From Chaetoceros tenuissimus (Eukaryota > Bacillariophyta > Thalassiosirophyceae > Chaetocerotales > Chaetocerotaceae), in the NCBI GenBank assembly GCA_021927905.1, contig BLLK01000068.1, forward strand, positions 1 to 64,000: a DNA stretch of 64,000 nt, written 5' to 3'. The notes under the pieces were generated by a model. It saw only the letters and a list, made by a program, of their open reading frames with translations, was not told the DNA's origin and made no database searches. This document shows, in pieces, positions 22,499 to 58,109 of this stretch (positions are counted from its first letter, which is position 1; each line of letters begins with the position of its first letter). A program made the translations under genes and the position numbers.

Positions 22499-22502
22499 TC
22501 AT

Positions 22503-23113
22503 AGTTGTAGATGTAGATGTAGATGTAGATGTAGATGTAGATGAAGATGAAGATGTAGATGTAGATGTAGATGTAGATGTAGATGTAGATGTAGATGTAG
22601 ATGTAGATGTAGATGTAGATGTAGATGTAGATGTAGATGTAGATGGTGATGTAGATGTAGATGTAGATGTAGATGTAGATGTAGATGAGATGCAGATGTA
22701 GATGTAGATGTAGATGTAGATGTAGATGTAGATGTAGATGTAGATGTAGATGCAGATGTAGATGATGTAGATGTAGATGTAGATGTAGATGTAGATGTAG
22801 ATGTAGATGTAGATGTAGATGTAGATGTAGATGTAGATGTAGATGTAGATGTAGATGTAGATGTAGATGTAGACATAGATGTAGACATAGATGTAGACAT
22901 AGATGTAGACATAGATGTAGACATAGATGTAGACATAGATGTAGACATAGATGTAGACATAGATGTAGACATAGATGTAGACATAGATGAAGATGTAGAC
23001 ATAGATGAAGATGTAGACATAGATGAAGATGTAGACATAGATGTAGATGTAGATGTAGTTGTAGTTGTAGTTGTAGTTGTAGTTGTAGTTGTAGTTGTAG
23101 ATGTAGATGCAGT
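22503..23113. repeat. (TAGATG)n hexanucleotide array, ~100 units
   Basis: Near-pure TAGATG/CATCTA units with two internal zones: 22870-23040, where the period doubles to GTAGACATAGAT, and 23050-23100, where GTAGTT dominates. Long minus-strand open frames across it (Ser-Thr or Tyr-Ile runs) are a by-product of the 6-bp period, not genes. Confidence 0.95.
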
Positions 23114-26500: not shown

Positions 26501-28929
26501 TTATGATGAGATATGGTGCATAGTCGCTGTAGAAGAAGTCTATGTCCAATATCTCTGTAGGATGGTGGCGTACTAAATCTGATGGTAGAGCAGTCCTGAG
26601 TACCTTGTTGTTCTTGTTCGCTCGTTTCCTTACTGTTTTGCCTACAATGAGCTGCTCAGCTGATCCCCCATAAATTGCTCTTGCTCTAGTAACGTCTTCT
26701 GCTGTTACAGGGGCATTTGTAATACTGTTGCCTTGTCCACTTAAAATGCGCTTAAATTCTGCATCAGAAGGCCAACCCATCCTTCCTTGAAGTATTCTTG
26801 CCCTCTCTGCTCCTTCCACTTCGGCATTGGAGAAGAATCTCTTGTTAGCTTTAACAGTTGAAAAGAAGAGGTGATGGAAAGAAGTAGATGTGTGAATCCT
26901 GTTTAGATTACTACTGCTGTTAACATCGAAACCGTAGAGACCATTGCTTAGCTGTTTGAATTCCAAGATGTAATCGTTGGAGATAAAAACAAAGAAACTG
27001 CTGGAATGTTGTGAATCTTTGAAAACACGGTAGTATCGCTCCAGATCAGCCATACTCAGGATGTTAGCCAGTGATTTGCTATTGAAATAAGCAGTCAAAG
27101 CTGGTAATAACTTGATGTGACCTTTCTTATCATAGTCCATGAACCCTCCATTTGTATGTCCTCGAATTGGCAAACAAACACCTATTCCTACCATCAACCT
27201 CCTGTTAAAGAAAGAAGAGAAAGTTGAGCCAGTATTGACAATGATAAGCGACTCGGGAAGTCGTGGCTGCGATTGGACGAAAATGTACATAAATTGTGAA
27301 AGTATGTAATTACCTGTGGCGCCATTCTCGTCCGGACAATCATTTGCATAATGTCCTGGTTTGTTGCACCTGTAGCAGACGAAGAGGTCCTGTTCTACCG
27401 GCTACCGGCTGACAAGTCATTGCACTTCCGATCTGTGCAAATTGCATACCGTTGCGTCCTGCTCCTCTGTTTCTCTGCTGATTATTACCTCTGTCACCAT
27501 TGTTGTTGTTTCCACTCTTCCAGTTTGTCATCATATGGATCACTGCAGCCATGGTCGTAGGGTAATTGTCCTGTCCTTGCAATAGACTATTATGCAGGTG
27601 ATCCCAAAGTCCTCCGAATCTCTTCACGTCTGCATTCATGAGGAATGCCATTGCCGCGTATTTCTGTCTTACATCTTTGTCCGTGATGGTTGGATCCTTA
27701 GCTTTCTCTTTCTTCAGTAGATCTTCGTGGTCAACGATGTCAAACACCCGCTTGGGCCACCAATTCTTGCGCATTTTCAAAATCAGCTTGGTAATCCTCC
27801 AGAGGCTTGCCCAACTGTTTGGTCTTATAGAAATCCCTTGTTGCTGTGAAGGCTGTGTGAATCGGATTCAAGGATGTCGTGATGCCATGTACAACTCTCT
27901 TAATGCTCTTCAATAGCCAAATGGCGTTGTAGTTGTTTTGCTGTGTCTCAAAGTAGTGTTCTGCTCTCAAGTTCTCAACAAGGGCTTTGGTACATTGGCC
28001 TAGAATTATACCCCATAGCTTAGCCATGTTCTCCTGTAGCAGGCTCTTCTTCTTCAAAAATTGGTTCATCTCCTGTGCATACAGTGCATTCGCTGGTGCC
28101 ATTGCCATGCTATTCTGCTGTAATCTATTTGTTCTCTGGGCTTCGGTCTCATTTTCTTCTGGCTCGGCTTGCACGATTTGCAAGTAAGTTACAATCTTGC
28201 CAATATCTGGGAGTTCATTCCTGAGAAGGACAAGCGGGTCTTCTAGCTCTGACACCGCTCTAGATAGTACGCTTGGGCTCTTGAAATTTACCAGAATGTA
28301 CGCAGCAAGTTTCTTGATGAAATTTGCTGTATTCTGATTGTTGCTTTCCGCCTTCGTTCCCATGACCGGCAACTCTTGGATTTGTCCTTTGAAGTTCCTA
28401 AATGCATTGCCTCCGCCACCTCTGTGACTGTTTCTCTGTCTACCATCAATACCCGAGCCATTCACGTTCCCTGACTGGTCTTGCTGCTGCTGGTTCTCTG
28501 CAGCCGGTTGCTGCTGTTGCTGTTGGTTCCCGCTCTCACTCATTTTGCTCTACACTAGCTTTAGATTCTCCAGTAATCTGGTTGTCGTTCTCCCACTTGA
28601 TTCCAATTTTATGGACACAAACGCTTTCCTGTATGCGTCACTACGGCGAAGTCTCCGCTCTTCCCGTATTTGGCCTTGGTTAGCACTCTTACACGCGCTC
28701 CGAGCACTAGTTTCTTCTCATTACTAGGGAGCTTCTCCTTGATTTTACTGTCTTTCTCTAACTTCAGGTTACTTAATTGCTTCGAAAACGATTCCACAGT
28801 GGCTTTGAGTAGTCTTATCTCTTCTATAAGGTCGTCGTTGCTTACCTGACTGATGGTCATAAACCGCTGCAGTTCTTAGGTTATGCAAAATTTTGGTGAT
28901 TTGGGTTATCCTTTTAAATAGAAACCAGG

Positions 28930-29215: not shown

Positions 29216-30142
29216 TGATTACAGTATCAAGAAGCAATATCCATACCTGTGACAATGACTAAAGTCTGAGAATGAGCAGCATGGACTGGCTGCAATGGTG
29301 GAGGTCAAACAAAGGATGATGACTCAAACATGACGGAAGATGGAATACCATGAATTTAATCTTTGCAAACTTCAAAGTAAGAACATTGATTCCACCAAGG
29401 AGTTTAATGTCTGGGATACCAAAAATGATGTTTACTGCAACAGATGAACTGAGTGCAATAGAAAGAATGAACGGTTTACCATTGAGAGTGATACAAGTCT
29501 TGTATCAAACTATTGTAGTCAGTGCTCCTTGCTCATAGAGGTCAACAGGCTTATCTGAAGTTGTAGCAACACTAAGACAAATAGGCTCAAATGAAGCTGG
29601 ATTGTCAAATTGGATATATTCATGAACGACATCTGGATGGGTTTGCATGATGTACTGATGGACCTTGAGACTACCAACTGAGAGAGCTGCACAAGAGTCC
29701 ATGTGAGCTTTGATACGTAAAACCTTTTCTCTATTCAAAAGTGGAAGGTTGATGAATAGAAGGTCATTGTTGGTGACAATTGGTGCTTTACGTTGGTGAA
29801 GGGACATATTGAGAAGTTGAGCAGTAATCATGCATACTGTATCACCTTCTTCAGCAAATTGCAAATCCTCAGAATCCTCAGAAGCTGGAGGGATAGTCTC
29901 ATTGGCAGATTTGTCAACAGTAACTTCTTTGGAACGATTGGCAGAAGTGAGAGGGAATGTACCTGCAGTCTGAGTGTCGGACTGTGAGACAAATAAAAAC
30001 AAATGAAACTGAAGTGTGAGTAATTGAGAAAAAGTGAGGACTATCTCTACAATACAATCACAGAATAGTAGAGGAGAGCTTGAGGGTAGCAAAATGGAAG
30101 CAAGTTGATCTTGAAGAGGTTGTTGTAGGTTGCAAATTGCAA

Positions 30143-30465
30143 AGTGTAGATTGTAGATTGTAGATTGTAGATTGTAGATTGTAGATTGTAGATTGTAGAT
30201 TGTAGATTGTAGATTGTAGATTGTAGATTGTAAATTGTAGATTGTAGATTGTAGATTGTAGATTGTAGATTGTAGATTGTAGATTGTAGATTGTAGATTG
30301 TAAATTGTAAATTGTAAATTGTAGATTGTAGATTGTAGATTGTAGATTGTAGATTATAGATTGTAGATTGTAGATTGTAGATTGTAGATTGTAGATTGTA
30401 GATTGTAGATTGTAGATTGTAGATTGTAGATTGTAGATTGTAGATTGTAGATTGTAGATTGTAGA
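30143..30465. repeat. (GTAGATT)n heptanucleotide minisatellite, ~45 units
   Basis: Nearly pure 7-bp units with a few GTAAATT variants. It lies in a non-coding gap between the gag and protease parts of the older element. The gap has splice-like edges on the minus strand (GTAAGT at 30486, a pyrimidine-rich TTTGTCTCACAG ending at 29982). Confidence 0.93.
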
Positions 30466-32252
30466 GACACTAAAGTGATACTTACAGAAGGAGTAGGTGG
30501 ATGATGCCCGTAAAGTGGTTTCTTGACCATATGGCAATTGAATTCATTGAAGAAATCCTCTTTTGACACAGTATTAAAAGCAGGGCATTTCTCCTTTGGC
30601 CAACAGCCTTTGCCAGTCAATGTATTGCCACAACAAAAACAACCACTATAGCTGTATGGAAATTTGCTCAAACAACCAGTAGTGGTGTTTTTGAAATGCT
30701 GAACACCATCTATAGAAATCAATTGGTGTCCCTCAGGGATACAACAAGTAGTAGTGGATGGATTGCTTTTGTATCTTGCAAGAGTAGACTCAGCTGGAGA
30801 CTGAGATTGGAACTTGAGCAACTGGGAAGAATACTGACTGTTGTTCACAAAGAAGATCAACTTCTGCTTGCAAAGCAGCAACAGCAGTTCCAGATTGAGA
30901 AGAGCTCATGACCTCTGCCATAAGCTCTTTTTGCTTTTCCATTTTTAGATAAGCAGACTGAGCAGCAGTACAAAACAAAAGAAGAGCTCTGAGGTGGTCA
31001 GATTTGGTTTGTGAAGTGCTAGGATCAGCCAGCTGAAAAGAGTCATCTTCATTGAGGTTTCCTTGAATGATACTGGAAAGAGAGTAAAAGAACTGATGAG
31101 CCAAGGTGATGCCCCAAGCCAAACATTCATTAGGAAGATTGGCAGCCTTGGAAGTAAAATCACCGTACAACTCATCTGGAGTGCCAGAACCTTGTTTGAG
31201 CTTGCAAACGGAATGATGAATAGTTTTCAAATCGTCTTCACCAAGGTATTGAGTTTTGCATGAAGCAATGAAAGATCGTAGGGAGATTTTGTTGGCAAAG
31301 GTAGAGAGAGAAGCAGATGGATCTGGGCATGATGTGACATTGGAAGCAAGCAACTTAAGGTGAAATCCAAAGATGTCATTAAAGTGAGCTTGAGAGTCGA
31401 GGAAGTCCAACTTGTCAAAGTGACCATAAGAAGTAAGATCAACAGAGTTGGCATTAGCTGCAGGTGTTTTGGCAAGGAAGGCTTCAAGCTTGGACTGAGC
31501 AGGTGGAGTAGGAGTAACAGGAGGAGGAGTAGTTGCAACAGGACAGGTAGGAGTCTGAAAGAGGTTGCAAGCTACACCAATGAAATTTGACTGAGCTGGA
31601 GCACAAGTGTGTCTAGCAGGTGTAGAGACAGTGCTTACATCAGAAATTGGAGTACCATCATCAGCCCAATTATGAGTACAAGCTTGGGTAGGGAGGTCCA
31701 AGTTAAAGAACATGACATGATCCTGAAGAGTGGACTCAGAAGGAAGGCAGGCAGAAACAGGCATGTTACATTCAAACTGTACTGCAGAAAGTCCTTCCTT
31801 GCGTTTGGGAGCATCATTGAAATGTTCAAAGTTAGTAAACTGTTGTTTCTTCCAAAGCTTCATAAAGGACAGGTTTTCAACTGTGAAAGGGGCATCAAGA
31901 ACACAAGCACAGGCATCCTGAGCATCTGAATGACATAAAACAAGAGAAGTGATTGGAATATCTTGTTGAAGTACAGACATAAGCTCAGCAGGAGTATGGT
32001 GGTCCTCAAGGTGGAGAAGTGGTAGAATGCATTCTGACAAGAGTGAATCAGTGCATTGAGGCTTGGGAGAGAAGGAAGGAAGGCAGATCTTTTGTCTTGT
32101 CCAATGGTCACATCTTTCATGCCAGAAGCTTGAAGGACTTTAGAAATGGAACTAGACAAAGGACCAGAAGGAGAACAGCCTCTAGAGGCAGAAGAGTGTT
32201 GAGCAGACATAGTTATTGGTGGGTGGGTATTTCCTCTTAAGATTCGGTGCCA

Positions 32253-32640
32253 TGTAACACACAAAAAGAGGGATGATAGCATCTTATAATTAAAAGCTAT
32301 TCTGAAAGATGTTGGATATGTTGTTGGATATCTTTTGGAAGAATTCTATGGAGTCTTGAGAATAATGAGACTTGTCATATGTTTGACATCCAAATCGTGG
32401 AACTATATTAATAAATGAGTGTTGCAGCCTGTTCAATCCTTTCCTCCCTATCCCATGTGGCCATTCCTCCAAGTTTTCTCCTGCATACTTGCTTTCTGTT
32501 ACCCTTTTGTTTTCATTAATAGTATTCTTCTGTCCTCCACTCAATCTGAAATTCTTCACATTCCTGGCTTCTAATGAAGTCATAAGGAGAAGTGTGAATA
32601 TAATAGACCTATAGGACATGAATCTGGACACTCCTCAACA
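32253..32640 (-). repeat. 5' LTR of the older element
   Basis: 388 bp with ends TGTTGAGGAGTGTCC and GTTACA on the minus strand. Its promoter-distal half is matched by the LTR fragment at 32740-33615. Confidence 0.7.
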
Positions 32641-32739
32641 CAAAATTGAGTAAAACTAGTGAGTGAAAAACTTGCTGTTTGGCAAAGTAAAATAAACCAA
32701 CTCAGACTATGTTGGTGGTTTGTTGAACATTTGGTGCCA

Positions 32740-33615
32740 TGTAGTAACATACAAAAAGAGGGATGATTGTATCTTATACTTAACCCTTTCCCTCACGAGT
32801 ACGCGAAAGTGCGCGTTTTGATCGAAAATTCATAAAATAACTTGTGATTGGCCAATTTCAGTAATTCCAAGTACTCAATACAAATGTATTGTTTCATGTG
32901 TGATTTTTTAGCTTCGAAATTTTATTTTTCGTTGAGTTATTTCAACATTACTTTCCAATGCATATTGACAGTAGTGTCAAAATGTAGATACCCCCTCCTT
33001 ATGTATTGAAGAAGGAATGTGGATTGTTGTTTTGCTTTGAATTGTTGTTTTTTGACAAATTCATGCCATTTTCCAAAAGAGGTCCATTTCTTCAAAATCT
33101 TCAGATTCAATATGTATTTTTACAGCGTATTTGTGGTGCAATAAAGCTCAAAAGTCTCAGTTCTCTTGTTTTCCATTCGTTCTTCATACTATCAGCTTCC
33201 TTTGATATGCTATTTATGCTAATATAGTTTATATTTCCTCCTTTGATTTACACATATCTTCACTGTCTTCTCCATAATTACAAAGAGAACCCTACATCAA
33301 CTCAATAATGCATATTTTATCGAAGAGGATGCACGAAATCTTAATCCGAGAGTACCATTCATTTCAATAGGTATAAAGTAGACTACTGATGTAATTTGGT
33401 GTAATTTTATTTGTTGGAAGTGATGTAATAGGAACGATGTGTTTGATGATGTTGTGTGTGTCTCCCGTGAGGGAAAGGGTTAAAAGCTACCTTTGTTCAT
33501 GTTTTGGTAGTTGTTGGATATGTGTTTTTTGGAATCATGAGAATAATGAAATGCTTCATCTGATAGACATCAATCATGGGAAACTAGATTTGTAAATGAG
33601 TGTTACAAATGTGCT
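32740..33615 (-). repeat. Related LTR fragment split by a TTAA element
   Basis: Matches the LTR at 32253-32440 in collinear order (TGCCATGTA...AAAAAGAGGGATGAT, then TTGTTGGATAT, GAATCATGAGAATAATGA and TAAATGAGTGTTACA). A 696-bp insert lies at 32784-33479. A primer-site-like TGGCACCAAATG precedes it on the minus strand, so this is a second copy of the family whose internal region was displaced when the neighbouring element inserted. Confidence 0.75.
32784..33479. mobile_element. piggyBac-like non-autonomous DNA transposon (MITE), TTAA target
   Basis: 696 bp bounded by perfect 14-bp terminal inverted repeats CCCTTTCCCTCACG / CGTGAGGGAAAGGG and by TTAA on both sides (32780-32783 and 33480-33483). 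TTAA duplication with CCC-starting termini is the hallmark of the piggyBac superfamily. The undisturbed related LTR at 32253 lacks the insert, giving an empty-site comparison. No transposase-like protein is encoded, so it would need enzyme in trans. Confidence 0.9.
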
Positions 33616-34141
33616 TTTTCGTAGCCCATCGTCTGTCATCGTTCGTCAGCAATAAACATGAAGCTAGCTAAGAAAATCATCCACTTGGCTATGGGGGGAC
33701 AAGACAACACCTTTTCAAATTCACCCCATAAAAGCACCTACTTGATATGGATAAGAATCAAGGATCTCAAAACGTCAGCCCGATCCAGCCATTTTCATCA
33801 ATCACCCTTTTTTCTGTGAGTATTGGGTTCTTTCATGTTGTCGTCGCACTTCACTCATTGAAGTTGATGTTCCGATAAAGAAAGGGAAGATAAAAATTCT
33901 ACAACTTTGATACGTTTTCATTCTGCAAAGAAACATATACCAAATCAAGAATAGAAATATCTCTACAGGTGTATCTGGGAGAGGATTGGCTGAAAGGGAA
34001 CATAGATTGACACATAGGTGGAAACTAGTGAAGACCAAATCTATCTGCACATCCGAATCTTAACGTCACTGACATCACTACATTTGAGCTGTTGATTGAG
34101 ACTAGGGATTCTATTTTTGGAAAGGGTCAAGCTATTTAAAA
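33616..34141. other. Intergenic region upstream of the SRA/AlkB-like gene
   Basis: AT-rich with no supported gene; presumably contains the promoter of the gene starting at 34142. An antisense open stretch (33802-34050) has no protein-like features. Confidence 0.4.
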
Positions 34142-37100
34142 ATGTCTCTTGAAAATATAGAAGTGATGAAAGCAACAACTACTCAGAATTTATCAACGAC
34201 TGAACATGGAACAAAAGAGACGTTGGGTTCGTCATCCGACTTGAAACATGCAGTACTGGAACAAAATTCTGACAGAGATCTTCAAAGTGCAGAAACAAAG
34301 AATCACTTGCAGATCAATCATGGCTTTGGTGATTCTTTGAGTATCATGGAAGAACAACAGAAATTGACGACGAATAAACCTCTACATAGTCAGTTCTCAT
34401 CAGGTCATTCTTTAGGTAACCAGGAATTGAAATCTCAGTCATCTAGTCACATTGCATCTATCAAAGGTCTACCATCAATAGATGCTGAAAAGGCTGTGAA
34501 GAATAGTAGCGACTATGCCCATTCTGTTCAAAATCATAATACAGGTTCTGTTCATGGGTCATCGACACATGTCTTGTCTAGTCGGGAAGTACCGCATCAG
34601 CCATTGCATTTACATAATTCAGAAAATAGCCGTATTCAAACAATAGGAGTTCGAGATACAGACAAGCAAACTTCTGCATTGCAATGTAATAATGCAAAAA
34701 AATCACAAGATAAAAATGAGGATGATTTTGCTTTTCCGGTACCTATGCCATTTTCTGTTGATGTTGCATCTGCACTGGATGATGTTCTTAATAGAAAAGA
34801 GCAAATACATAAAAGTGGAAAATCACCACTAAAATCTGACTCCAGGCCATGTGTATTACAGCATACTTCAGTAGTAGATTATAGCTCCAGATCAGCTAGT
34901 CCACAAAGTACATCCACAGATGGGAACTCAACGTTGCATCATTCAAATCTTCATTTGGGGGAAGAAAGGCAATTGACAAATGGGATCAAGCTTTTCAAAA
35001 AATCAGACAAGGAAAGTTCTGTTGCGGTGACAAATTCAATGATGCTTGGGGAGGAAAGTCTGAATTTTGTTGCACAAATGACTGCACCTGCGAAAGAATC
35101 GAAGCAAACCTCACCGACGTCTAAAAAGTTGAATGATGTTTTATCCATTGCAACAGCTACAAGCACTAACGTGTCCTTTACAAGCTCGACGGTCTCACCA
35201 TACTCAATGGATGATTCAAATTCAAAGGTACCCTTAATATCGGGAACTGCAGCTGCAAAAATGGACGCTATGAATCGTTCTAAGGCACTCTTGACAACGC
35301 AAAATATTAGCTCGAAAGCACTCGCTCCTCCACCACAATTAGTTCCACAGAAATTACCAGAAAAGGTTTCAATAACATCATCTGCTCAAAGTGACCTCAA
35401 TATTGCACTGACAAAAAGAAATGTACATGAAAAGTCGGACGAAATGAATGGTTCATCAAATGTTTCGTCTGCTCTGGAAGATAAAAACATACGGCAGTCT
35501 TCTCAGGCAATGAATATGCTTGCTGACATAATTTCTCATGCACCACCTCTAGCTAGCAACAATGAAGAAATGTCAAATGGTATGGTCCCTGTTGGACAAT
35601 CGTTGAGTGTTTACACTGCAATTGCAGCTCAAGCAGGAGTCGCAACGCACAACCCTCTGTCTTTTCCTACTTCAAAATTACCCAATGAGTCTACAGCAGG
35701 GACAAGCGTAAAACCAGAAACAGGAGGAGAAGGAAATTCCAAAGTTTTCCAACATAATCATTCTTCTGAAGAAAACATTGATAACATTGAGGAGAAACCA
35801 GTGTACATAAGAGAAATAGGCAAAATTCGACGTTATAGTGCAATCACACAGGAATTTAGCGAATGGGAAGATCTTCCGTGTCAAACATACGGTGAAATTG
35901 AACCAAGAAGATGGTGTGAATTGAATATTGATGAATCCATAGAAATTCCACTTAGGAGAGGGGGGCGACTGCGTGTATTCCCAAATTTTGTAGCCGATGG
36001 AAGAAGGCAAGCAGTTGCAAACTCCATGGATAAATGTACACTGTATAGACAATACTGGAGAGAAGGTGATGAAGACTCTTTAGAATCGCGAATGCAAGTA
36101 CTTCTCTCGTCAAAAACAAACCGTGTACATAGCGGTAGCAGTAAGAAAGGAAGACCTGGATATGTCTACGATGGAGTGACAATGATGGCCCAGCCTCTTT
36201 CCCATGTCCCAGATGTTGAAAAATTATGTTCGGATCTTGCAGAATTATACCGTCTTCCGGGGAAGGAGTGGAATATTGGCGCAAATCTTGTTTGTTATAG
36301 GAATGGCGAAGATCACATGGCATGGAATTCAAACTGTGAACAAGGCGAAGTTCTCATTTTGTGTATAATTGCTGAATCTCAAAACTGTACGCGACCCATT
36401 TTAATTAGACCGAAAGGACATAGTCCTTTACAGGATGGTGACGAGGAGATAATTGTTTTTGTTGGGCAAGGTGATGCTTACGAAATGGATGGTATGTTTA
36501 CTTTTGTTCTTTGTTTTGTCTAAAAGTTGTGCTCTTCTAATCTCAATTCATTTGTCCAGGTCAAATGCAAATATCATATGAGCACTGTATGCCGAAGAAA
36601 GAAGATGACATGAGTGCTAAAAGATCTGTTGTTGTTTTTCGACATGGTAAATCATTGTCTGTTACCTCTGACACAGGAAATCCACTTTTTGAGACAGAGA
36701 AAGAAAAGAAGAAGAAGATTAGTAATATAGAATTTGGTCACCCTTCTCGTGAAATTACTGAGGGCAAAGATGTGTATACTAGAACGCAACTTTTAGAAAC
36801 TGGTGCCCATTCTAATGACCGTAAACTTATCAGCGGGACATCAAAAGATGGATGTGATAGTGTGCTTATCGAGGATTTGCAGCCTTTAATGAGAGAGGAC
36901 GATGGTTTGTGTTGGATCAAGATATCTTGTGGCAAATCTGATGGTGGTGGTGCCCTCTTCCAGAACTATGAAAATAAATCTCCAATCAGAGTCTTCAGAG
37001 CTTCTTCTTTGGACTCGCAGTATGCACCAGCTTTATTTGCAGATAACGCCGACCAAAAGATTTATAGATATGATGGGCTTTACTCTGTACGAGCCATGTG

Positions 37101-39405
37101 GGATACAGAAGGTAACGAAACTGAAGAAGTCCCGCAAAATAACGCATCAAAACACACTTTTTTCCTAATGAGATGTCCTAAGAAGCCTGTTGATGGTGTG
37201 TATGAAGATGGAATGTTCTACAATAAAATGAGTATTCATGAACTTTGGAATGAGATCCAGAAACGAAGTGGGATAAGGAATCCTCGTCTATTTCAAGTGC
37301 CCCAACCATCGATGGAATTAGCACCTATTGGTGACAAAGCTAATCTACGAATCAAAAAGGAAACAATCAAATTACCCTCTGAAGAAAATATGAAAATGCG
37401 GAAGGCTCGTAGAAAGCGCAAGCTTGCATCTTCTCCAGAGTCTTTTAGTGACTCCAATGTGAAACAGCTTTCAAGCACAAGATCCATTCCGTTGCATAAT
37501 ACCAGTTCGAATCTCATGAATGAATCTGAGATAAGCGTAGAAGAAGATTCAGATATCGGAAGTGTAAGACCTAAACGAAGATCTGCAACAGCGGCAAGAT
37601 CGTACCTTCAAGAAGCTATGCAGAACAAAAATGGTGTTGAAAAGAAAAGTAGTGATCGTAAAAGACGCCCATCTATTCATGTCAGTGATCAAAGCGCAAA
37701 CTCAAAGAAATTGAAATCAGAGGACAACTCAGATAATGAAAGTAGTGTGTGTTCTGACTCTATGATGGATGAGATTCTGCTTTCACCAGGAGATAAGAGG
37801 CCGAAGAAGCAACAAAGAACTGCCAGAAATAGAAATTTAAGTTTGAGGAAAGGAGGAGATGACAACATTGTCTCTAAAAGGAATTCTTCGAAAAAGACAA
37901 AAGCTGACGCTACCGAAGCTTTTGAAGAAGTAGAAGAAGTTGAACCAGACATGGGGAAAGTCGATTTTGATCCTAGTGTGATCAAGATTGGCTATAGAGT
38001 GAATGTGGAGTATCGACAAGTTCTATATAAAGCAACTGTTCGCAAAGTGCGTTTCAAACAAAACAAATATCAATTCCAGATTCATTATGATGGTAATAAG
38101 AAAACAAACTTACGATGGATACCTGACGATATGGTTCATGACATTCTTTCGGAACTTCCCGAGGAAGATAATCACCAGGAGCATCATTCAGAAGAAGGAA
38201 AGGAAATCCAATCTAAACAGGGAGATGCAGTTCCAGTTGAGGTTCAGTCTTCTACAGAGAAAGATACATCCATTGACCAAAATCAGGATGAGGAACTCAT
38301 TGATTTGCACAAGTTTCCTGTAGGGGAGCAAATTTACGTCCAGTGGCGAAGGGTGCTGTATCTGGCAACTGTTGTTAAAACTCGGTATAACAGGAAAGGA
38401 AATAGTGAATACTTTATACATTACGATGGTTTCAAGAAAACATCTGACAAATGGGTAAAGGAAGATGCTATTTTCGAGATAAATGAAGAAAACTCCAAGC
38501 GATTTGAAGAACAAAGAAGCGATTCCCCTGTCTCAGACTCTTTGTCAAGTAAAAAGTCGAAATCATCAAGGAAATCGAGTGGCAATCTCTCAACTAGATC
38601 GTCTGCGGCAGAATCGATGTCAAGACGGTCAAGAAAAAGAAATGACTTGTCTACCAATAACTCTGAAGACGGCTCTACATTGGACATGAGTCAGTTTGAT
38701 TCCGGAGTAGAATTTTTGCCTGGTTCGTGTGTTTTTGTAGTGAGAAAAGACGCTTTGTATCTAGCAAAAATGGTAAAAAGGAAAAAGATTGGTAGAAGCA
38801 TGGAGTATCTAGTCCATTTTGACGGATCTTCGACGATACATGACACATGGGTTCCATTATCATCTATATATGAAATTAATCCTCGGACTAGACGCGTTTT
38901 TGACAGTACTGCCGATCAACGTGAAGATCTTACTGAAGACGACGAAGGAGAGAAGCGAGAGAAGGAAGAAAAAATTGAAGTTCAAACCAGAAGATCCAAT
39001 AACAATGACACCTCGCCAACTCGCTCATCCAGTAGAAGCTCTCGAAAGCCAGCCAAGTTCTCAGAAATTGATAATGATGATGAAGAGCAGGAAGAGAAAG
39101 TTACAAAGAAGACTACAAAAGCCAAATCAAAGAAACCAAAGGTATTGCCAAATGTGCAGCCTGTTGATTTAAGTGGAATTGATGCTGGTTGTGACTTCCT
39201 TCCAGGTTCAACTATATTTGTGGAATGGAAAAACGGTCTTTACCTTGCAAAGATGCTCAAAAAGAGAGGAAGACGTGAAAATATGGAATATTTTGTCCAT
39301 TATGATGGCTTTCGTCAAAGTCAGGATGCGTGGGTCTCTATTTCATCAGTATATGAAATTAATCCGCAAACAAAACGTGCTTTCAACAAACAAAAGAAAA
39401 AGTGA
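34142..39405 (+). CDS. AlkB-like (degenerate) / SRA (YDG) / four Tudor-knot domain chromatin protein
   Basis: Two exons, 34142-36491 and 36560-39405, joined over a 68-nt GTATGT...TTTGTCCAG intron give 1731 residues. Residues 1-560 are Ser/Asn/His-rich and disordered-looking. Residues about 700-815 resemble an AlkB-type 2OG-Fe(II) dioxygenase: NIGANLVCYRNGEDHMAW, then YEHCMPKK (H792) and KRSVVVFR (R805, R811). The usual HxD iron ligands are replaced by Asn729 and Asn731, so oxygenase activity is doubtful. Residues about 851-992 form an SRA domain (SPIRVFRASS, YRYDGLYSVRAMW), a fold that reads modified cytosine in UHRF1-type proteins. Basic, NLS-like segments follow, then four Tudor-knot/chromo-barrel repeats (about 1258, 1367, 1502, 1663), each with a F/YxxHYDG/HFDG core. 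It is likely a nuclear reader of DNA methylation and histone marks; the role is inferred from domains. Confidence 0.85.
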
Positions 39406-39510
39406 TTTCACAATCTAATTTTCATTTATAACAGGGAATGCAAAAGTAAAAATAAAAAGTTCTGAAAAATACAAATGGTGCCTTATTCTTCTATCTAACT
39501 CTACATTATG
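39350..39510. repeat. 3' end of the SRA/AlkB-like gene, duplicated at 40649
   Basis: From ATATGAAATTAATCCGCAAA through the stop codon and about 100 nt of 3' UTR this matches 40649-40790, with a short deletion after the stop in the second copy. Together they bracket the RlmN-like pseudogene. Confidence 0.9.
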
Positions 39511-39969
39511 AAATATACTTCGAACTCCCATCAATTCAATGTTGTTGTCGTGCCAAAGAAAAAAAGAAAAGAAAACATTCAAAAAGTCTAAATTTGCCAA
39601 GAATAAATTTTCAAAACTAGGTGTCTTTTTTCAAATGAAGTCGTGAAGAAAGAAAAAAGGAAATGAAGAGAAAAGACAGCCAGCCGCCAATGACAGTGTA
39701 GTGAAGGCTAGCCATGGTGTAATTATAGATAGCTATTTAAAATAAGTGTTTATCCATATTGGTCTGGGGGTTCCTATCGGTCTCATTGTACGTACGTAAG
39801 TATGTACGGAGTAACCATCACCAGTCACCCTCAAACAAAAAAAAGAACAAAAACAAACAAGAAACATTTTCATTGATGATTTTTTTGCAAAAGGTGTTAC
39901 ATTGGACATTACCACTCTATCATAGTCATCACATTCATCATCATCTCTTTCTCCAAAGAAACAATAAAC
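39511..39969. other. Intergenic region before the RlmN-like pseudogene
   Basis: AT-rich; no gene supported. Presumed former promoter of the RlmN-like gene. Confidence 0.35.
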
Positions 39970-40648
39970 ATGAAATCCTTGTCTTTGTCTACAATGATAT
40001 TCATGTCGAGTATCTTCATCATCATCTCTCATCATGTAATGATGACAGAAGCATTCTGATTGAAGACTCTCAAAGGATTCCACACAAAATTACACTCGAC
40101 CAAACAACAACAAGTGGAAACCAACAATAGCAACGACAAGCCACTCTCCAAGCCATCTCCCATCAGTATGAACCTCGATGAACTCACACAAACAATGAAT
40201 GGAAAAGGAAAAGCACAACTCTGCTGGGACTGTTTTAAAATTGGAATCGATCCACTTTTATTCTTTCATCCAAATTATCCACCAGACCAATTGGATCAAA
40301 GCATTCATAACCTTTTATCGACAACTTGTATGACTCAATCTGATATCCTACAATATATACCAGTCAAACGACAATCGCAGATATTGGGTAGGAAATCATT
40401 ACAACACCTTGCAGATTCTTATTCGAATCCATTAGGAATAGAATCATCAATTGCACAATTGGTACAAATTACACAATCTAAGGATGGAACTACCAAATTA
40501 CTTTTGAAATTGCTTGGAGGGGAACATTATATTGAATCATCATTATACCCAATGAGAAATGGGGGAAATCTACTCTTTGTGTGAGTTCACAAGTTGGATG
40601 CGCGCAAGGTTGTGTCTTTTGTGCCACTGGGAAAATGGGGAGATTGGC
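39970..40648 (+). pseudogene. Plastid-targeted RlmN/Cfr-like radical-SAM methyltransferase, truncated
   Basis: From the ATG at 39970 a signal peptide is read (MKSLSLSTMIFMSSIFIIIS...MTEAF) ending in the AF motif of diatom plastid precursors. An in-frame TGA (40057-40059) follows directly, after which the same frame continues with an RlmN-like N-terminal half (residues after 40170: [49 protein letters not shown]). At the GGGGG run near 40564 the frame shifts by one, and the radical-SAM signature [16 protein letters not shown] (CX3CX2C) is read in the next frame. The homology then ends abruptly at 40649, where a copy of the neighbour's 3' end begins. Family role: methylation of C2 of A2503 in 23S rRNA and of tRNA A37. 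Three independent lesions make this a dead gene; a functional copy probably exists elsewhere. Confidence 0.8.
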
Positions 40649-40790
40649 TATATGAAATTAATCCGCAAACAAAACGTGCTTTCAACAAACAAAAAGAAAA
40701 AGTGATTTATTATCAGGGAATGCAAAAGTAAAAATAAAAAGTTCTGAAAAATATATATGGTGCCTTGTTATTCCTTTAACTCTATATGAC
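40649..40790. repeat. Second copy of the SRA/AlkB-like gene's 3' end
   Basis: Copy of 39350-39510, carrying the last 18 codons and part of the 3' UTR, out of context and with one extra A in the AAAAG run. Confidence 0.9.
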
Positions 40791-41206
40791 GACAGATAAA
40801 CTTGAATAAATCCAGTTTGGGTTGAATCGAATGCACACACATAGATTTGACGAAGATGAGAAGTCGGAAGCCATAAAAAAAGAGAAGCATTTCAATCCAG
40901 CTATTTGATCTAGCCGATTAACAAAAACAGTATCCTCCTCCTCCTCTTCGCCTCCACATGGATGATTTTGTGACGTCTGAAGGAAGAGGCAGCTTATGAG
41001 ATCCAATCGAAATCTCATGTTCAATCTAAACATCACTCCACGATTGCCCATCACTTGTAGGAATCGCTTTACTTAACCCAGTGACAATATTGAGTGCTGA
41101 AGAGATTTAGGAGTTCCTCATTTTTGGTTGCCTAGCAAGAAATTCATTATTACATTTATTTACAATACAAAGAAACCCTAAAATTTTTCATCATAGGAAA
41201 GAAATC
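40791..41206. other. Intergenic region, no gene seen
   Basis: Contains the promoter side of the plastid protein gene at 41207. An antisense open frame of 90 codons here has an unconvincing composition. Confidence 0.35.
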
Positions 41207-42224
41207 ATGAGAAAAATAGAGCTTATTTTATGCGTCCTTCTTGGATATCTATATGGCACAACTGCGTTCTGCCCATCCACTTCATTGAGTCAGACATATA
41301 GTCAAGCAAAGTCCTCACTGGAGGTTGACCCTTACATGACCTCGCATTCAAAATATAACCCATCCCTTTTCATGTCAAAAGATGATGCGAACGTACCAAA
41401 GAGAATTAGTCGCCGTAAAAGATTGAAGAAAAAAGCAAAAACATTTGCATTTTCCTTAGCTTTATATTCCACAATATTGGTTCGCACTCCAAAGGCTGCA
41501 TACGCAGACCATCCATTACAAAATGTACCTTCTGGGAAGATTAGTCTACGACCTGGAATCACAGTAGAACAAATTGAAATGGAAGCTGAACGCAGAGGTG
41601 AACAAACAATCGATGAACAAATAGAATCACAATATGAAAAGCATTCTTCTGCAACCACTGATAAAAAAGCAACTGCCAAAAAGGCAGATAAGAAAAAGAG
41701 CAAGTTTGATTTCGACGATGAGTATGACTTTGATGAAGAGGAAGATGATGCTGGTGAAATTTCCTTCAGCACAGGATCATCTGCAAGTGCAAAAACCTTG
41801 GATGTTGAAAATAGTGGAAGTGCTCGCTCTGTTACAAGATTTTCTGGAAGTGGACCTGCAATGAGTGAACAAAAAAAGAGTTCTGAGATTAACAAAACGG
41901 TTGTGAAAATAATGTCACCAATCTTTGCTTTCTGTTTTGCTAGAGAAACTATTCGGTGGAATAGAGAACAGAAAAATGTGGATAAGGGAATTGAAATTAT
42001 GGAGCAGCAAAGACAGGAATACTTGAAATCAAAACAGGAAGGAGATAATGACGAGGACGACGATGATGACGACGAAGATGATGTAAGTAAACCTCATTTC
42101 ATAGTTCAATCAATTCTTTTTAGGAATATGTATTCATCTTACTCTTATTTTCCAACAGGATGACGACGATGAGGATGATGAAGATGACGACGATGATGAC
42201 GACGACGAATACCGTAGAAAGTAG
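41207..42224 (+). CDS. Plastid-targeted acidic protein of unknown function
   Basis: Exons 41207-42082 and 42159-42224 joined over a 76-nt GTAAGT...TTTTCCAACAG intron give 313 residues. The N-terminus is a signal peptide (MRKIELILCVLLGYLYGTTA) followed by FCPSTS, matching the AF cleavage motif of diatom plastid precursors, then a Ser/Lys-rich transit-like segment. A second hydrophobic stretch with AYADHP (about 78-102) could be a thylakoid transfer signal or membrane segment. The centre alternates Lys-rich and Asp/Glu-rich blocks, and a conserved-looking helix follows (EINKTVVKIMSPIFAFCFAR, about 225-245). The C-terminus is almost pure Asp/Glu, continuing across the intron, and ends EYRRK. I do not recognise the family. 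Confidence 0.8.
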
Positions 42225-42545
42225 AAGCTATAAAAAATTATAAAAATAAACAATTTGAAAACTTTCAACTTGAAGTCATAATCGTCAGTAGTTTTCATTC
42301 TTTCCTCATGTTAGTGGGTGAAAGCAAGAATCAGATATAGCTGACACTTCTGTTTGATCAATATTAGTTATACTTCTCAAACATGCAATCCTCTAACAAA
42401 CTGATGACGAAACGACCCAGCCTTTCATAAGACATCTGATTCCATAGCTCTACAATGATCCGACATGACAATGCACACCAAATCAGTAAAAATAACATAA
42501 AAACACAAACAATAATTCATTAAAAGTTTTTTTATAGTAACAAAT
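42225..42545. other. Convergent intergenic region
   Basis: Lies between the 3' ends of the plastid protein gene and eL42. AT-rich, AATAAA-like words, no gene. Confidence 0.4.
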
Positions 42546-42860
42546 CTAATACTGGTGACCAGATGCCTGTGCCTTAGCTCCAAGTTCGAAATGCTTAGTT
42601 CTCTTCAAAGTCAACTGCTTCTTAGTCTTGCACTTCTTACATTCAAGACGGATAACAACCTTACGGGTAGTCTTTGCCTTCTTGTGGAAAACTGGCTTAG
42701 TTTGTCCTCCGAAACCCATCTGCTTGGAATCGTAACGACGCTTTCCTTGTGCAAAGTTGGAAGCCTTTCCAGCCTTGTACTGGGTTACCTTGTGCACTTG
42801 GTGCTTACGGCACTTCTTTCCCGCACAAAAAGTTTTACGTTCCTTTGGTACATTAACCAT
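42546..42860 (-). CDS. RPL44: 60S ribosomal protein eL42 (L44/L36A)
   Basis: 104 residues, very close to the family length of 105-106. It begins [20 protein letters not shown] and has [44 protein letters not shown] and [23 protein letters not shown]. Four cysteines of the zinc site (C12, C17, C74, C77) are present. It is a component of the large cytosolic subunit near the E site. The residue after TK in TKPVFHKK is Pro, the cycloheximide-sensitive state in yeasts (Gln there gives resistance). Single exon; the start is the only ATG that gives the conserved N-terminus. Confidence 0.98.
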
Positions 42861-43004
42861 TTTGAATCTATTGTTTTTGACTATAGTGAAAAAAGTGTTA
42901 GTTACATTGATTTAAAGACAAGTGTATGCGCGTATTTTTGAAATTAGTATAAACAGATGACCTCACACAAAACAACATGTTTGCTCGATACAACACAAAA
43001 TCTT

Positions 43005-43340
43005 TTAGAGTAAATTCATTCCCTCCAATCTCCCCAAGTCAGTTGTGTAGAACACTTGAAATTGAAAAGGTATAGGTGGTGTTTCTTCATTAAGGATGCT
43101 GCGATCTACATACCTCGTGATGACTTTCAAAGTAGAAGAAGGGAGGTTGCTTCCAACAAGAGTTTCTTGAAGAGCTTGCGTCCTGAGAATCAATTTTGCA
43201 GGTTAGTAAGAGGTACGATACTCCCGACCCTTTATGGATAACAGTTTGAAGGGGCTAAAAGGTACCATACGTACTTCCATGTACTTACTCGTATGGTTGT
43301 TTTCGTCTGTCCTTCCTTCTCTTATTTGGCTCTTTGATGA
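43005..43340 (-). other. Possible terminal exons of a small spliced gene
   Basis: On the minus strand 43182-43005 reads as a 59-codon open stretch (ALQETLVGSNLPSSTLKVIT, ILNEETPPIPFQFQVFYTTD) to a TAA. It is preceded by a consensus branch site TTACTAAC (43209-43202) and TTCTCAG. A GTAAGTAC donor lies at 43288-43281, and the sequence before it is open in the matching phase (KEPNKRRKDRRKQPYE). However part of the upstream stretch recurs near 58600 as a dispersed motif, so this may be coincidental. No start exon was found. Confidence 0.3.
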
Positions 43341-43717
43341 GTATTTGGCTATATCAATATCGCTATGAAAAAAAGTATGGTACGGTAGTACGTACATACT
43401 GTCCTATTGTATCACTACTACTACCACTTAAGTATGATGTATATTAATGCCAAACTGTACTCGTATCTGCTGAAGTTCCATAAGTCTTATTTTTTTGGAA
43501 TTTTAATCCTGTAGCATGTTATTTGAAGATAAGATCTAGGAAATGAATCGATCCGAGATCAAAATTGGAGCATTGGACAAATGGCGCGTTATCGTTATTT
43601 GTGTCATAGATTATTTCAAAAACTTAATTTTGCATCTACCTTATTAATACATGTAATCTATAATTAAATATGAAATGTCTTGATATTCTGTAGAGCTTTG
43701 CATGGGTCAAGTATACT
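43341..43717. other. Intergenic, no gene seen
   Basis: AT-rich; contains many GTAC-rich short words (GTACGTAC). No gene supported. Confidence 0.35.
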
Positions 43718-44790
43718 CTATATTTCCACATTTGGAGTTTTTGGATACATGCTCACATCAAACATTTTCTTATCATCATGCGCGGCAATCCCAAACTTTG
43801 GATCCCAATTTACATTCAAAAAGGTAATCTCATACGCCTCGATTTCAGCTGCAACAGGTTCCAAAGTATGCACAAAGTATCCCATCTTTTCCAATGGAAT
43901 AATGTATTCTCTCAACATATTTTGTAAATATTTTGGACTCTTTTCATGCCACAAGTGAAATTCCAACAATAATTGCCCAACATTATGTACAGAAAGTTTC
44001 CACAAATCAGGTAAGAGTTCCCATTCCATACCTTCTACATCAGCTTTCAAGATATCAATCTTTTCATGTCCTAATTGTTGCATATGCTGCTGTATAGATT
44101 GACAGGGATATGTCTTTTGAGCCTGACCTTGTGTCTTTGTATTAGTCCCTTCCAATGAAAATTCCGACTGACCATTTGGACATATCCCAATTGGATGGAA
44201 ATGATACTTGTCATTCCATTCTTGAGGCGGTGTACCAGAAGTTGGATCAAAAATGTGTATTTCGCAACTTGGATTGACTTTTATTATGTTGCGTTCAAAG
44301 AAATCATCGCCATTACTTCCGAATGAATAGACTACACACTTTTCAATTTTATTTAGTCCACAAGTCCACTTTCCACCATCGAATTGTGGAGGTGCAGTGT
44401 CACTGACGTAATTGGATCTCTGCAATTTCCAAGGACATGAGATTGTAGGTTGCAATGCTGTATAAAGTGTTTGAGCTTTTGTTATTGATACCTGTTGAAA
44501 TCTAGGAGGGCCGCCAGTCTTCCATCCCCATTGAGATTTGTCCGTGTTATGTGTGTAGAGATATGCATTCCTTGCTTTTACCTTGGTCAATGTATTCTGC
44601 AATGCATTTTCATAATTGTATGGTGATTGGAATGAAGAAGATACGGAATTTTTTTTCGCTTCTTCTTTCTCTCTTTTGTCGATTAGAGCCGCAAATGAAA
44701 TGGCCAAGATAAGCAGAATAGGTGGAAGCAAGAGATGCCACTTTCTTTTCCTTTGTCTTACAGATCTACTTTTACTTATATGTTCACCAT
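43718..44790 (-). CDS. METTL24/FkbM-like membrane-anchored methyltransferase
   Basis: The body (337 residues from 44731) has a hydrophobic signal-anchor LLLPPILLILAISFAALI preceded by a basic VRQRKRK tail, then a Methyltransf_22-type domain: CPWKLQRSN, KCVVYSFGSNGDDFFE (SAM-binding), EIHIFDPTSG, HPIGIC, KIDILKADVEGMEWELLPDL and QLLLEFHLWHE. Type II ER/Golgi topology is likely; the substrate is unknown. Odd: the reading frame has no ATG before the anchor. The open frame extends upstream to about 44815, while an ATG at 44790 is one base out of frame. Either a one-base error or mutation, a short upstream exon, or a non-ATG start must be invoked. Confidence 0.85.
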
Positions 44791-46776
44791 TTTTACAATG
44801 TACTCGTACGATGTAGAGCTATTACCGCTAGCTATGGTATTTTTTTGTGGTTGGTCTATTTAGCCGCTAGCCGCGTGTTTTCGTATGCACTACTACACGA
44901 CGAGTACGTATTGAGTATGTACGTACCTACCTACTCTATTGTGTGAGATATTTTCATATTCCACTTTGGGTTAGTGTTTGATTCATCCTCTTTCAGTGGG
45001 TATTTTAAAAATTCCCTGTAGGTAGTAGACATGACCAGAGTGAGCATTTCTTTGTCGACTAGCGTAGATCAACGCAATAGGTTAGAGTGGTAAACTAATA
45101 TGGTGTGAAACTTGGATATTAGTCTTATTGGTATGCTATTGAGTGGTGCGACAATGCTAGTCGCCTCGCCTGGGTGGGATGGTGGGATTTTTTTAATTTC
45201 CCTTTTACTATTATGTATTGACTAAACTCAAGTTTAGATCTTCACGTGGTTAACAAAAGAAACTGAGATGAACAAGGAGTTGTTGGTATGTTGCTGTTGA
45301 GATAGCACTTGATGTGTGTCTATCTTCCACAGAGTGCAATTTTTCGTGACGTGTACTTTGTACATGGCTAGATTTGGGATAGTGGCTATTCTCCTTGTGT
45401 GTTGCTACTCTCACGGACGGCAAGCCGTTACATCTCCTAACAAAGCTAAATCCCCCCAATAAATGGCTAAAATACCTCTATTTGACAATAATTAGGCCAT
45501 TTTCCATCAGGTAGTACAATGTCGTTCCATTGTTTATTTCTTTGATTTTCAATAGCTCAACATTTCGTTCTCTTTCTTCATGTTGTTTCTTATTGTTTCC
45601 ATCTCTAAAGAAATGAAAACGCAACAGAATTCTTCAAAATATCTATTGCAATTTGAAAAATGTTCAACTCTGTTTGTAATTGGAAAAGGTGCCGAGCAAG
45701 TTCACGTAACAACAGCATGCAGTACATAGTTTTGATTTAGTTTACTTTCAAAAATGGAAGAAATAGTTGCAATGCCTATTATTTCTTCTCGTTTTAGATA
45801 TAATTTGATTTGGCTACAATTTTGTTTGTGCATGCTGCAGTTGTCTTTGACATTTACTCCAAGAGTGCCAGAAGAGAAAGGAATATTTACACCTTTGCTT
45901 GTTGTGTCAAGAAAATTGATCTTGCTGGTAACTATTTTGAATTCCATCATATCCTTTCGGCTTTAATATATTCGTCAGCTATTCTATCTTATTTGTCAAA
46001 GCTTTCAAAGTAGTGTTTTGTTTTTTAACAGACTCATTGATTGGTCGCTAGAGGATGCTCGCTCCTTCCTAAATCATCGAATATAAAGTAGCCATGTTTG
46101 CATTTCTGCTACCCAATACTAGAACTCTAATCATAGAAGCAATATTAATCCCTCGACATGACCAATTGGTACATGTATTTGGCAAATATATTGATGTTTC
46201 AATACATACAGCTTGAAAGACCGAATTCATTAACCCTTCTTACTTCGTGCAGCAGCTATCATAGTGAGCCATAACATTTTTTACAGTCAATATCCAGATG
46301 CGGCGAGCTGGCACTATATAGATGTGATTGTAATGAATACATGTACAGCTTGCCGCATCTAGATTTTACTTTCATGACGAGTTATGCACTCGCATCTATC
46401 AATTTTTATGAGTTAATTAATAACTTCTTATCGTTGAGTTGAACGAGTTAAGTCCCATCTTGTATTTTTTACATCGTGTGAAAATTGGTGGCTATGAAGC
46501 AATAGGCCATTAATTCTGGTATGTCTTGTACGTGTCCACGGGGATGTTGCTTCCCCCCTATTCTTGCCGTCCGTGTCTACGGCAAATTACATGTCAGTCC
46601 GTCATCCGTCAATAACAACACCTAGAAAATTCCAAATTATTACACTAAGCGATAGCGGCCATAGTCGTACACTATCCACATATGAATTGCAACAAGTTTC
46701 TTCTAGCTAGGAATCCCTGTCACTAGTTTTGAACGGTGAAATGTAGATTTGTTATAGTTATTCATTCAACTTACAA
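44791..46776. other. ~2 kb intergenic region between divergent genes
   Basis: No convincing gene on either strand. Short open frames around 45700-45970 are open on both strands and lack protein-like character. It holds the hairpin at 46296-46360. It presumably carries promoters for the minus-strand gene ending at 43718 and the plus-strand gene starting at 46777. Confidence 0.4.
46296..46360. repeat. Hairpin-forming inverted repeat
   Basis: AGATGCGGCGAGCTG (46296-46310) pairs with CAGCTTGCCGCATCT (46346-46360), 14 of 15 positions, with a 35-nt loop. Function unknown; it stands out as GC-rich in an AT-rich gap. Confidence 0.75.
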
Positions 46777-49700
46777 ATGGAAAGAATGCTGAAATGGCAA
46801 TCCAAATGCATAGACTGCATCGAAAAGCGTCGACAAATCAGATGTATGACTTATCAAGAAGTGGAAGAATATGCAGAAGATTTCATTAAATGTTGCAAAG
46901 CGACTGATTTACATAGTGCAGGTGAATATCATAAACAGTATTTATTACTGATACCATGGTTTGGGAAGGATGGCGATGGCACACCTCACTTTGACGTCAA
47001 AACTTTGCTCCAAGCAATGACTGTATTTGCCGTACAAAGAGCAAATCCAAGGACAGGGCAAATATACTTCTGGGATTTGTTGCATAATACAATACATCTA
47101 TCCATCACGAAGTTGCAATTGGATTTACTTCAAACCTTTATGAATGTTGCAGTTGTAGAAAACACAGAAAATGTATTACCAGTGGATTTTGGGATCGAAT
47201 ATGTTCCAAATCTTGACTCTGAAAAAAGGCCTCAACATCTTGACAAATCAGTTTATGGGATCAATTGTGTTGTAAATTATGATGAGGAGGACAAAGAACC
47301 TCAGTTACTTGGCCAAGAAGGGAAAAACTCCTTTGAAATAATTTTTAAAGAAATTCAAAATGATTTGAATATGAAAGAAAGTAAAAGGGGGACTTTTGCA
47401 CTTAATATAGGCTACACATCCATGGATTCTAACGCTTACTCGGACAATAGAAGCTCCATATTGCGCACTGTAAATCCAAACCTTGTGAAAAATGTAGGTG
47501 AAGTACGCACTTCTTCTATATTGCTAGTCATTCTTATTCGCCTCACTTTCAATATACTTTTTCGTAGACAACTCAAATAAGTGAAGAAGCGCGTCGAGAA
47601 TTTGGAAAACTTGCTCTACATGCATCAACATCTGCCTTGGAAAAATTTCGTCTGACCAACCACTTCAACTTGCCAGATACAGAAGCAGGAAATATGAGAA
47701 GGGAACTCAGGAAAGAATTTGGTAGAAAGTTGATGATGAATGATGCCGATCTAGATTCAATGAAGTTTGAAGGCATTTCTGCCTCTGTTGTTCTTAATTT
47801 GAATCATCATCTTGATGCTCTGAATGATTCATCCAAGAATCAATCTGGAACAATAGCAATGACCCACTATTTACCCGTAAAAATTGTCAACAACAAGAGG
47901 TTAAAGGAGCTTTTGGGACACTTGAACTACACAGATGAGGACTCCTTTCCTTTCACGATTATATTCTACGGACGCAAATGCTGCTATTCTGTTTACAATT
48001 TTGCAAAGGAAATTGAAGAAATGCAATGCAAAGATTCACCTCAGATAGAGAAAATTATTGCATCGAGCATTTTGCAGATAAAGGGTGAAAGAGATTATGA
48101 TGGCCGAATTTTCGATGACCCTAGTCATACCTTTCTTGATAAATTTATTCTTCATAAAATTGGAAAATACCCCGTGAAACTCCAATATGATCCAATGGTA
48201 AGTAAGTACAGCGATCGCGTATCTTGTATTATACATACTTTCCATGTCATCTAACTGAAAATCAAGTCCAAATGGTCGATAGTCTTAGATATGATCCTTA
48301 GATTTGGTTGCTACTGTAACACGAATTCTAGATCTGACGCCACAGCAGGAGATGTGATCATTATTTGTCTTTTCTGTATCTTAGTAGGCATTCATGAAGC
48401 TGTATCTTTATTTGAGATGAAAATGGAGAAAACTGATGGGAAAATAATCCTTCTTAGAAACATGATGACTATAATGGAGGTTCAGAATATTACTCAAGAG
48501 CACATTAACTCTTTTAAAGAATTAATTTTTAGCCATTGTGAAAAGGCTCTTGAGGTACAAAAACAAAAGGATGTGAATTCAAGAAATATCTTTTGCAACA
48601 AGTTACAGACTACAATTGAGTCGCTCTCATTTCATCCGACCAAAGAACAAGCGATCGATTTGATTCAGGTTTTGTGCCTATGTGGAATCCTTCCTTTATC
48701 ATTTTTAGATTGGTGTCCTAGCCACAACATCGAACACTTCTTCGAAGAACCTTCAAGCATTCCGGATGCTATTTTGAGGATAAGAGAAAAACTGAAGCCT
48801 TTATTTTATGGGTCAATGCTGCGCAATATTCTATTGGTTGCAAAAGAAACAGATACTGAAACTCCAGAAACTAAAACCCCTTGTCACAACTATTACTCCT
48901 ATTGTTTTCTAGCTGGAAGAATTACACAAAGGTTTTTTCGACTACACTTTACTAGCCTTCTAAAGTGTCATGTTGAAATGCTTCTTCACCCGAATGTTCA
49001 TGCAAAGCGAAAATCAAATGCTACTGCCACTATTGCCCTTGGTGACTGGAAGAACTGCAAGAAACAGAAGAAGGAGGACAAAACGAAGGGCGACAAGAAT
49101 AGTTCCGTTTACTGGGAAAACGATATAGTAAAGGAATCATCACATTTAATCATCTCCACAAAATTCAAGCAATTCTTTCTTGGCGAAAAAACTGAAACGA
49201 CGAAGAGGAAATTGGATCATCTTACCTCGGCTAACATTTTAGGTTCTCTAGGAGATATAAGGGGGAAAGCATATGACACCTTAGCACTTTTGAAATCTAG
49301 TCCGATTTCTTATCCTCCGGCTCGGATGGATCCAGTGGCAAATGAGAAACTTGGGAAGACTCGGAAACAACCATCCTTTCAGGAATCCATATCCGAGCCA
49401 TCATACACTAGTACAAATGTTTCTTTCCAGAATAAAGCCGCATCGTTCAAACAACCCAAAGGAAGACCACCAAAGGGCAAAAGTTGGGATAGTGTAAATG
49501 GGGTCTGGGTATCGCAAGTTGCTGGGACTCCAAACGTACCAAGCAAATGTGCTGACACTTCTAAGAAATGTGGTAATGTACCAAACAAAGAATCCCAAAC
49601 TTTCCCTAAACCTCAGGGAAGACCGAGGAAGAGTTGTACATGGGATAGTACGAATGGTAAATGGATCCCAAATAATGATAACCAACAAATGAGTAAACAG

Positions 49701-57935: not shown

Positions 57936-58109
57936 TTTCACTGGTATCCAATCACCGTTTCTGAATGAATATAATATTAATATGTTTAAGAACAGACACA
58001 AAAAAAGCACCGTTTCATATTACAAATAAATCTCTATTCAAATTTTTATTCTTGTTAAAACCGTAAATTGAAATTGGAAGAAGAATATTATTACCTTCTT
58101 ATATTATTA

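Follow-up and report, generated by a model that had tools for sequence, protein, structure and literature searches.

A candidate non-catalytic chromatin scaffold combining AlkB-like, SRA-like and Tudor-knot domains in the diatom Chaetoceros tenuissimus

The stretch of DNA analyzed here (the window) comprises positions 1-64000 of contig C53 (BLLK01000068.1) from Chaetoceros tenuissimus, whose assembly amounts to 41.0 Mb in 68 contigs. A gene at 34142-39405 on its + strand encodes a predicted protein that combines an AlkB-like fold, an SRA-like fold, and four Tudor-knot domains. The AlkB-like and SRA-like folds each lack key residues used by their relatives to act on or hold modified bases. Because these residues are missing and four domains of the histone-reader type are present, a docking protein appears most likely, rather than a DNA-demethylating enzyme. 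Judged from its sequence, the product of this single locus has about an even chance of being a non-catalytic, multivalent chromatin reader or scaffold, probably nuclear.

The AlkB-like domain (2OG-FeII_Oxy_2, residues 610-804, 35969..36621, + strand) is interrupted by an intron and is matched in the spliced protein with an E value of 3.6e-8 and 34.3 bits, against a Pfam cut-off of 31.2. In AlkB-type dioxygenases, the HxD...H motif holds Fe(II). The closest solved sequences in a PDB sequence comparison are ALKBH3 entries (E 0.02, weak taken alone); where these read WHSD, and a paralog from the same genome (L009) reads YHID, the diatom protein reads W-N729-S730-N731 (36326..36334, + strand), both ligand residues of the HxD being Asn. 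The same Asn-Ser-Asn triplet is found in the second copy of the gene, on contig C29. The domain resembles AlkB/ALKBH3-like dioxygenases in its family profile, in the distal His792 and in Arg805/Arg811, presumably the 2-oxoglutarate (2OG)-side motif, which are retained in the alignment with ALKBH3 and L009 (36583..36642, + strand); it differs from them in the triplet that replaces the Fe(II) ligands. A PF13532 profile search of the genome, blind to introns so that further paralogs may exist, gave ten matches representing nine loci (L011 and L015 are neighboring parts on contig C27, and L015 alone scores below the cut-off). The HxD is kept at all nine AlkB loci found (eight by script, L014 by eye).

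The SRA domain (SAD_SRA, residues 849-974, 36754..37131, + strand) is matched with an E value of 2e-10 and 41.1 bits against a cut-off of 30.7, and the SRA fold is retained in a model built on bacterial SRA domains. Two tyrosines are reported to wall the pocket for the flipped base in TagI and UHRF1 (PMC6212794). Both tyrosine columns (TagI 55 and 67) are kept in the TagI and UHRF1 rows and in 13/13 bacterial relatives, a set biased by search patterns that included the pocket motif GGYEDDQD, whereas both are absent in the diatom protein, as seen in alignments of its pocket/finger region (residues 887-930, 36868..36999, + strand) with relatives. No tyrosine occurs in residues 873-919, where W902 and F917 are the sole aromatic residues, and the first one of the pocket region is Y920. 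The pocket-finger segment is also short (41 residues between anchors versus 52-57 in relatives). TagI-type SRA-HNH endonucleases differ further by their HNH domain, none being matched by Pfam in the diatom protein, while the equivalent of their Asp58 is alignment-dependent. Since the pocket tyrosines are missing, canonical reading of 5-methylcytosine (5mC) is disfavored.

The Tudor-knot family is matched with an E value of 1.3e-27 in four stretches, and the closest solved chains to the array in the PDB comparison are the chromo-barrels of Eaf3, MRG15, and Arabidopsis MRG. With cage positions assigned as in MRG15, the five-position cage is fully aromatic in two of the four repeats: repeat 2 (residues 1371-1421, 38320..38472, + strand; W1379, Y1384, Y1405, F1408, W1415) and repeat 4 (residues 1665-1714, 39202..39351, + strand; W1673, Y1678, Y1698, F1701, W1708), both reading W/Y/Y/F/W. 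Repeat 1 (residues ~1255-1315, 37972..38154, + strand) has four aromatic residues of five (Y1268, Y1273, Y1293, N1296, W1303) and repeat 3 (residues ~1500-1562, 38707..38895, + strand) three of five (R1512, Y1517, F1537, S1540, W1547). The aligned cages of Drosophila MRG15 and fission-yeast Eaf3 are both H/Y/Y/W/W. The likeness to MRG15/Eaf3/MSL3 chromo-barrel proteins extends to the type of all four repeats; those proteins, however, carry an MRG domain, none being matched by Pfam in the diatom protein. Each of the other four Tudor-knot loci found in the genome, among them a MYST acetyltransferase and an MRG protein, shows a single stretch in the frames scanned.

An earlier note on this DNA, made from the letters alone, had proposed an unusual epigenetic reader in which the AlkB-type domain acts on alkylated bases and the SRA domain reads methylated or hydroxymethylated cytosine. 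The architecture is borne out: 2OG-FeII_Oxy_2, SAD_SRA, and Tudor-knot all pass the Pfam cut-offs on the spliced protein, at the AlkB, SRA, and four Tudor-knot stretches given above. Chromatin reading also stands as the best interpretation, since every one of the five cage positions is aromatic in two of the four Tudor-knots. Action on alkylated bases is not to be expected with the HxD changed to Asn-Ser-Asn in both copies, and for the SRA domain the family assignment holds, but reading of 5mC or 5-hydroxymethylcytosine cannot be assumed with the pocket tyrosines absent and the finger segment short.

The second copy, on contig C29, keeps the intron and the frame, its exons 1 and 2 being 97.0% and 98.5% identical to those of C53; the remaining aligned blocks of the two contigs show 92.5-95.6% identity and are separated by insertions. 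C53 is probably the other haplotype of C29, while a segmental duplication is a possible origin of the C29 copy. In the alignment of the two proteins, 44 columns differ: 37 hold substitutions, six hold gaps, and one holds an X caused by an unfetched base. Synonymous and non-synonymous changes were counted between this one pair of copies, leaving out codons with gaps or N. The AlkB part (residues 555-815) shows 12 synonymous and two non-synonymous changes, the SRA part (residues 840-1045) six and one, and the four Tudor-knots pooled seven and none, whereas the N-terminal 554 residues show 21 and 24, with a ratio of the non-synonymous to the synonymous proportion (pN/pS) of 0.32. Since the folded domains together give 25:3 and the rest of the protein 32:43 (Fisher P 1.5e-5), the pseudo-domains appear, as far as one copy pair shows, to be under constraint rather than decaying. 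Beyond the gene, window positions 31893-51715 are collinear, with insertion differences, with C29:462000-492000 (L003-L005), and positions 50774-50886 match L005 in more than one place.

In the proposed scaffold, Tudor-knots 2 and 4 would bind methylated histone lysine, as suggested by their nearest solved relatives, the MRG15/Eaf3-type chromo-barrels. The pseudo-AlkB and SRA folds might supply contacts to DNA or protein without chemistry, and the long N-terminus might recruit partners. Residues 1-554 look disordered from their composition, and no Pfam family was matched there when exon 1 was scanned alone at E up to 1. As a whole, the protein would be a multivalent scaffold that reads histones and might sit at silenced repeats. 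Arabidopsis SUVH2/SUVH9 offer the closest working analogy: in them an SRA domain is reported to be fused to a likely inactive enzyme domain, and the protein to serve in recruiting a partner (PMC7617993). The enzyme fold is SET in SUVH2/SUVH9 and AlkB-like in the diatom protein; besides, the SRA of SUVH2/SUVH9 is reported to bind methylated DNA (PMC7617993).

Several points weigh against the scaffold, in addition to the bias of the bacterial SRA set. The AlkB match lies just 3 bits above the Pfam cut-off, the roles given to the AlkB and cage residues are presumed, and the SRA model leans towards the fold of the bacterial relatives on which it was built. The comparison behind the apparent constraint covers two copies only. 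The pocket Asp (TagI 58) corresponds to L890 in the MAFFT alignment and to D898 in the profile alignment, and the loss of the known pocket residues would still be compatible with a reshaped pocket.

Such reshaping is a plausible but less likely alternative: the SRA or pseudo-AlkB pocket might have been adapted to another base or mark (e.g., N6-methyladenine, an oxidized base, or plain DNA), making the protein a modified-base reader of new specificity. The amino-acid conservation of the folded domains between copies, the SRA fold kept in the model, and the retained distal His and both Arg residues of the AlkB domain are consistent with this, as is the profile alignment, in which REDD 895-898 stands opposite YEDD. 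Base flipping in a simulation is also reported to have done without the finger (PMC6816099). No ligand is positively indicated, however, with W902 and F917 as the only aromatic residues in 873-919.

A UHRF1-type role appears unlikely. Here the protein would be a partner of DNMT5: its SRA domain would read (hemi)methylated CpG, its Tudor-knots histone methylation, and DNMT5 would be brought to replicated repeats. Favoring this, a PF02182 search of the genome found two places, which are the two copies of this gene, making it the sole SRA locus found, although an SRA split by introns could escape. DNMT5-like loci also occur in the same genome. A PF00145 search gave 17 matches in 12 stretches, one of which (L049) is better explained by Methyltransf_15. 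L051, on contig C14, carries a Tudor (PTM/DIR17-like, before the methylase), a methylase, and sub-threshold SNF2 matches in separate frames; its 646-aa (amino acid) frame matches PDB 7r76 with an E value of 1.7e-12, an entry labeled Rad8 that we take to be Cryptococcus DNMT5. L052, on contig C33, looks by eye like a close copy of L051; the frame scanned there matches a methylase but not SNF2. L051 and L052 are likely two DNMT5-like loci in split frames. DNMT1 is reported missing from diatoms (PMC8566409), and loss of DNMT5a in Phaeodactylum tricornutum is reported to entail global loss of CG methylation (PMC9998398). The pocket Asp may moreover persist as D898.

Against such a role, both pocket tyrosines are absent and the finger segment is short, whereas the UHRF1 finger is reported to be required for selectivity and maintenance (PMC6816099). 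No RING domain is among the six Pfam families matched in the spliced protein at E up to 1 (Tudor-knot, MSL3_chromo-like, SAD_SRA, 2OG-FeII_Oxy_2, Chromo, and MBT, the last below its cut-off). Hemimethylated DNA itself is reported to release DNMT5, and UHRF1-like functions are seen as built into that enzyme (PMC9998398); since these parts already lie within DNMT5, a need for the diatom protein there is disfavored. The same source proposes that DNMT3, DNMT4, and DNMT6 may depend on accessory proteins of the UHRF1 type and urges further investigation of these. CpG observed/expected ratios are a weak test and partly counter to the UHRF1-type role: they are 0.32-0.57 at 16-32 kb of the window versus 0.57-0.72 from 36 kb on, but retroelements at 4-16 kb have gene-like values of 0.63-0.70, and satellites are among the sequences with the lowest values. 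A UHRF1-like connection between the protein and the DNMT5-like loci is conceivable as a hypothesis.

The SRA fold is shared with UHRF1/UHRF2 and plant VIM proteins, and in UHRF1 it likewise occurs with Tudor-type histone reading in one protein. The diatom protein differs from them by the missing pocket tyrosines, by the short pocket-finger segment and by the absence of any Pfam match to a RING, PHD, or ubiquitin-like family. UHRF1 is laid out with a tandem Tudor, instead of which the diatom protein has an AlkB-like domain and four Tudor-knots. An assignment as a UHRF1 orthologue was rejected because no RING is matched and the pocket tyrosines are absent.

That the AlkB-type domain is a working demethylase relying on atypical metal ligands is very improbable, and this reading was rejected for the lost HxD: His792 and Arg805/811 are retained and the domain changes little between copies, but both the His and the Asp of the motif are Asn in both copies, and the HxD is present at all nine paralogous loci found. 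Equally improbable is an artefact, in the form of two adjoining genes or a faulty gene model. Each exon alone lies in a long open frame (34106-36523 and 36541-39405, + strand); however, a separate scan of exon 1 yields no Pfam family at E up to 1, exon 2 scanned alone does not match 2OG-FeII_Oxy_2, and the match appears only in the spliced protein. Because the AlkB match requires the splice across the 68-nucleotide intron, two separate genes are disfavored, and the intron-split domain is the best evidence at hand for a single gene. The second copy, with its conserved intron and frames, also argues against an artefact.

In the gene model, exon 1 (34142..36491, + strand) encodes residues 1-783 and the first base of codon 784. 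It is followed by a GT-AG intron (36492..36559, + strand, GTATGT ... CAG), the same in the C29 copy, whose removal restores the frame. Exon 2 (36560..39405, + strand) extends from the remainder of codon 784 to the stop (residue 1731). Conceptual splicing joins the exons into 1731 aa without an internal stop, in agreement with the coordinates, intron, and length previously claimed. The splice and the 5' end of the gene are predicted from the sequence.

Relatives were sought in collections that hold almost no eukaryotes. Pattern scans, which reach close relatives only, revealed no relative in viral contigs (with exon 2 and the SRA and AlkB parts) or, with exon 2 as the query, in contigs of bacteria and archaea; plasmids and phages likewise yielded none when searched with the SRA by tblastn. 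A literature search for SRA domain and AlkB, with most subscription papers outside its reach, found no publication. UHRF1 homologs with an SRA and without a RING have been tabulated over 180 species, including 10 stramenopiles (PMC10538959), and an orthologue may be among them. The architecture seems an unusual combination of known domains; we do not claim that it or the gene is unpublished.

Retroelements abound in the first 32 kb of the window, with reverse transcriptase matches at 825-2693 (below the cut-off) and at 12959-14770, frames recognized by eye as copia-like at 24132-27401, and two satellites (TAGATG x102 at 22502-23109 and TTGTAGA x49 at 30123-30465). A frame at 41111-42160 has a hydrophobic stretch and TTAFCPS near its start, which presumably resembles a diatom plastid targeting signal. 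This frame and the long open frames at 54687-58019 (1111 aa) and 48255-51719 (1155 aa) gave no Pfam match at E 0.001. Elsewhere, the genome contains 11 silicon-transporter and 63 light-harvesting protein matches, which bear out a diatom host. Three of the former lie in a row at C17:442278-446357, each assigned to a 1459-aa open frame, and one stretch holds two stops.

If the scaffold reading is true, two base-handling folds that lost key pocket residues yet changed little in sequence would clearly exemplify the conversion of enzyme-like domains into chromatin adaptors. For DNMT3, DNMT4, and DNMT6, the link between DNA methylation and histone marks in diatoms might require accessory proteins of the UHRF1 type (PMC9998398). 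It is conceivable, albeit with low probability, that the pseudo-AlkB/SRA/Tudor-knot protein is an adaptor tying histone marks to methylation by DNMT5 or another methyltransferase in diatoms, its former base-handling folds now sensing, without catalysis, either the substrate or some other base mark. As the sole SRA locus found in this genome, and one that also carries histone-reader domains, the gene offers a named, testable candidate.

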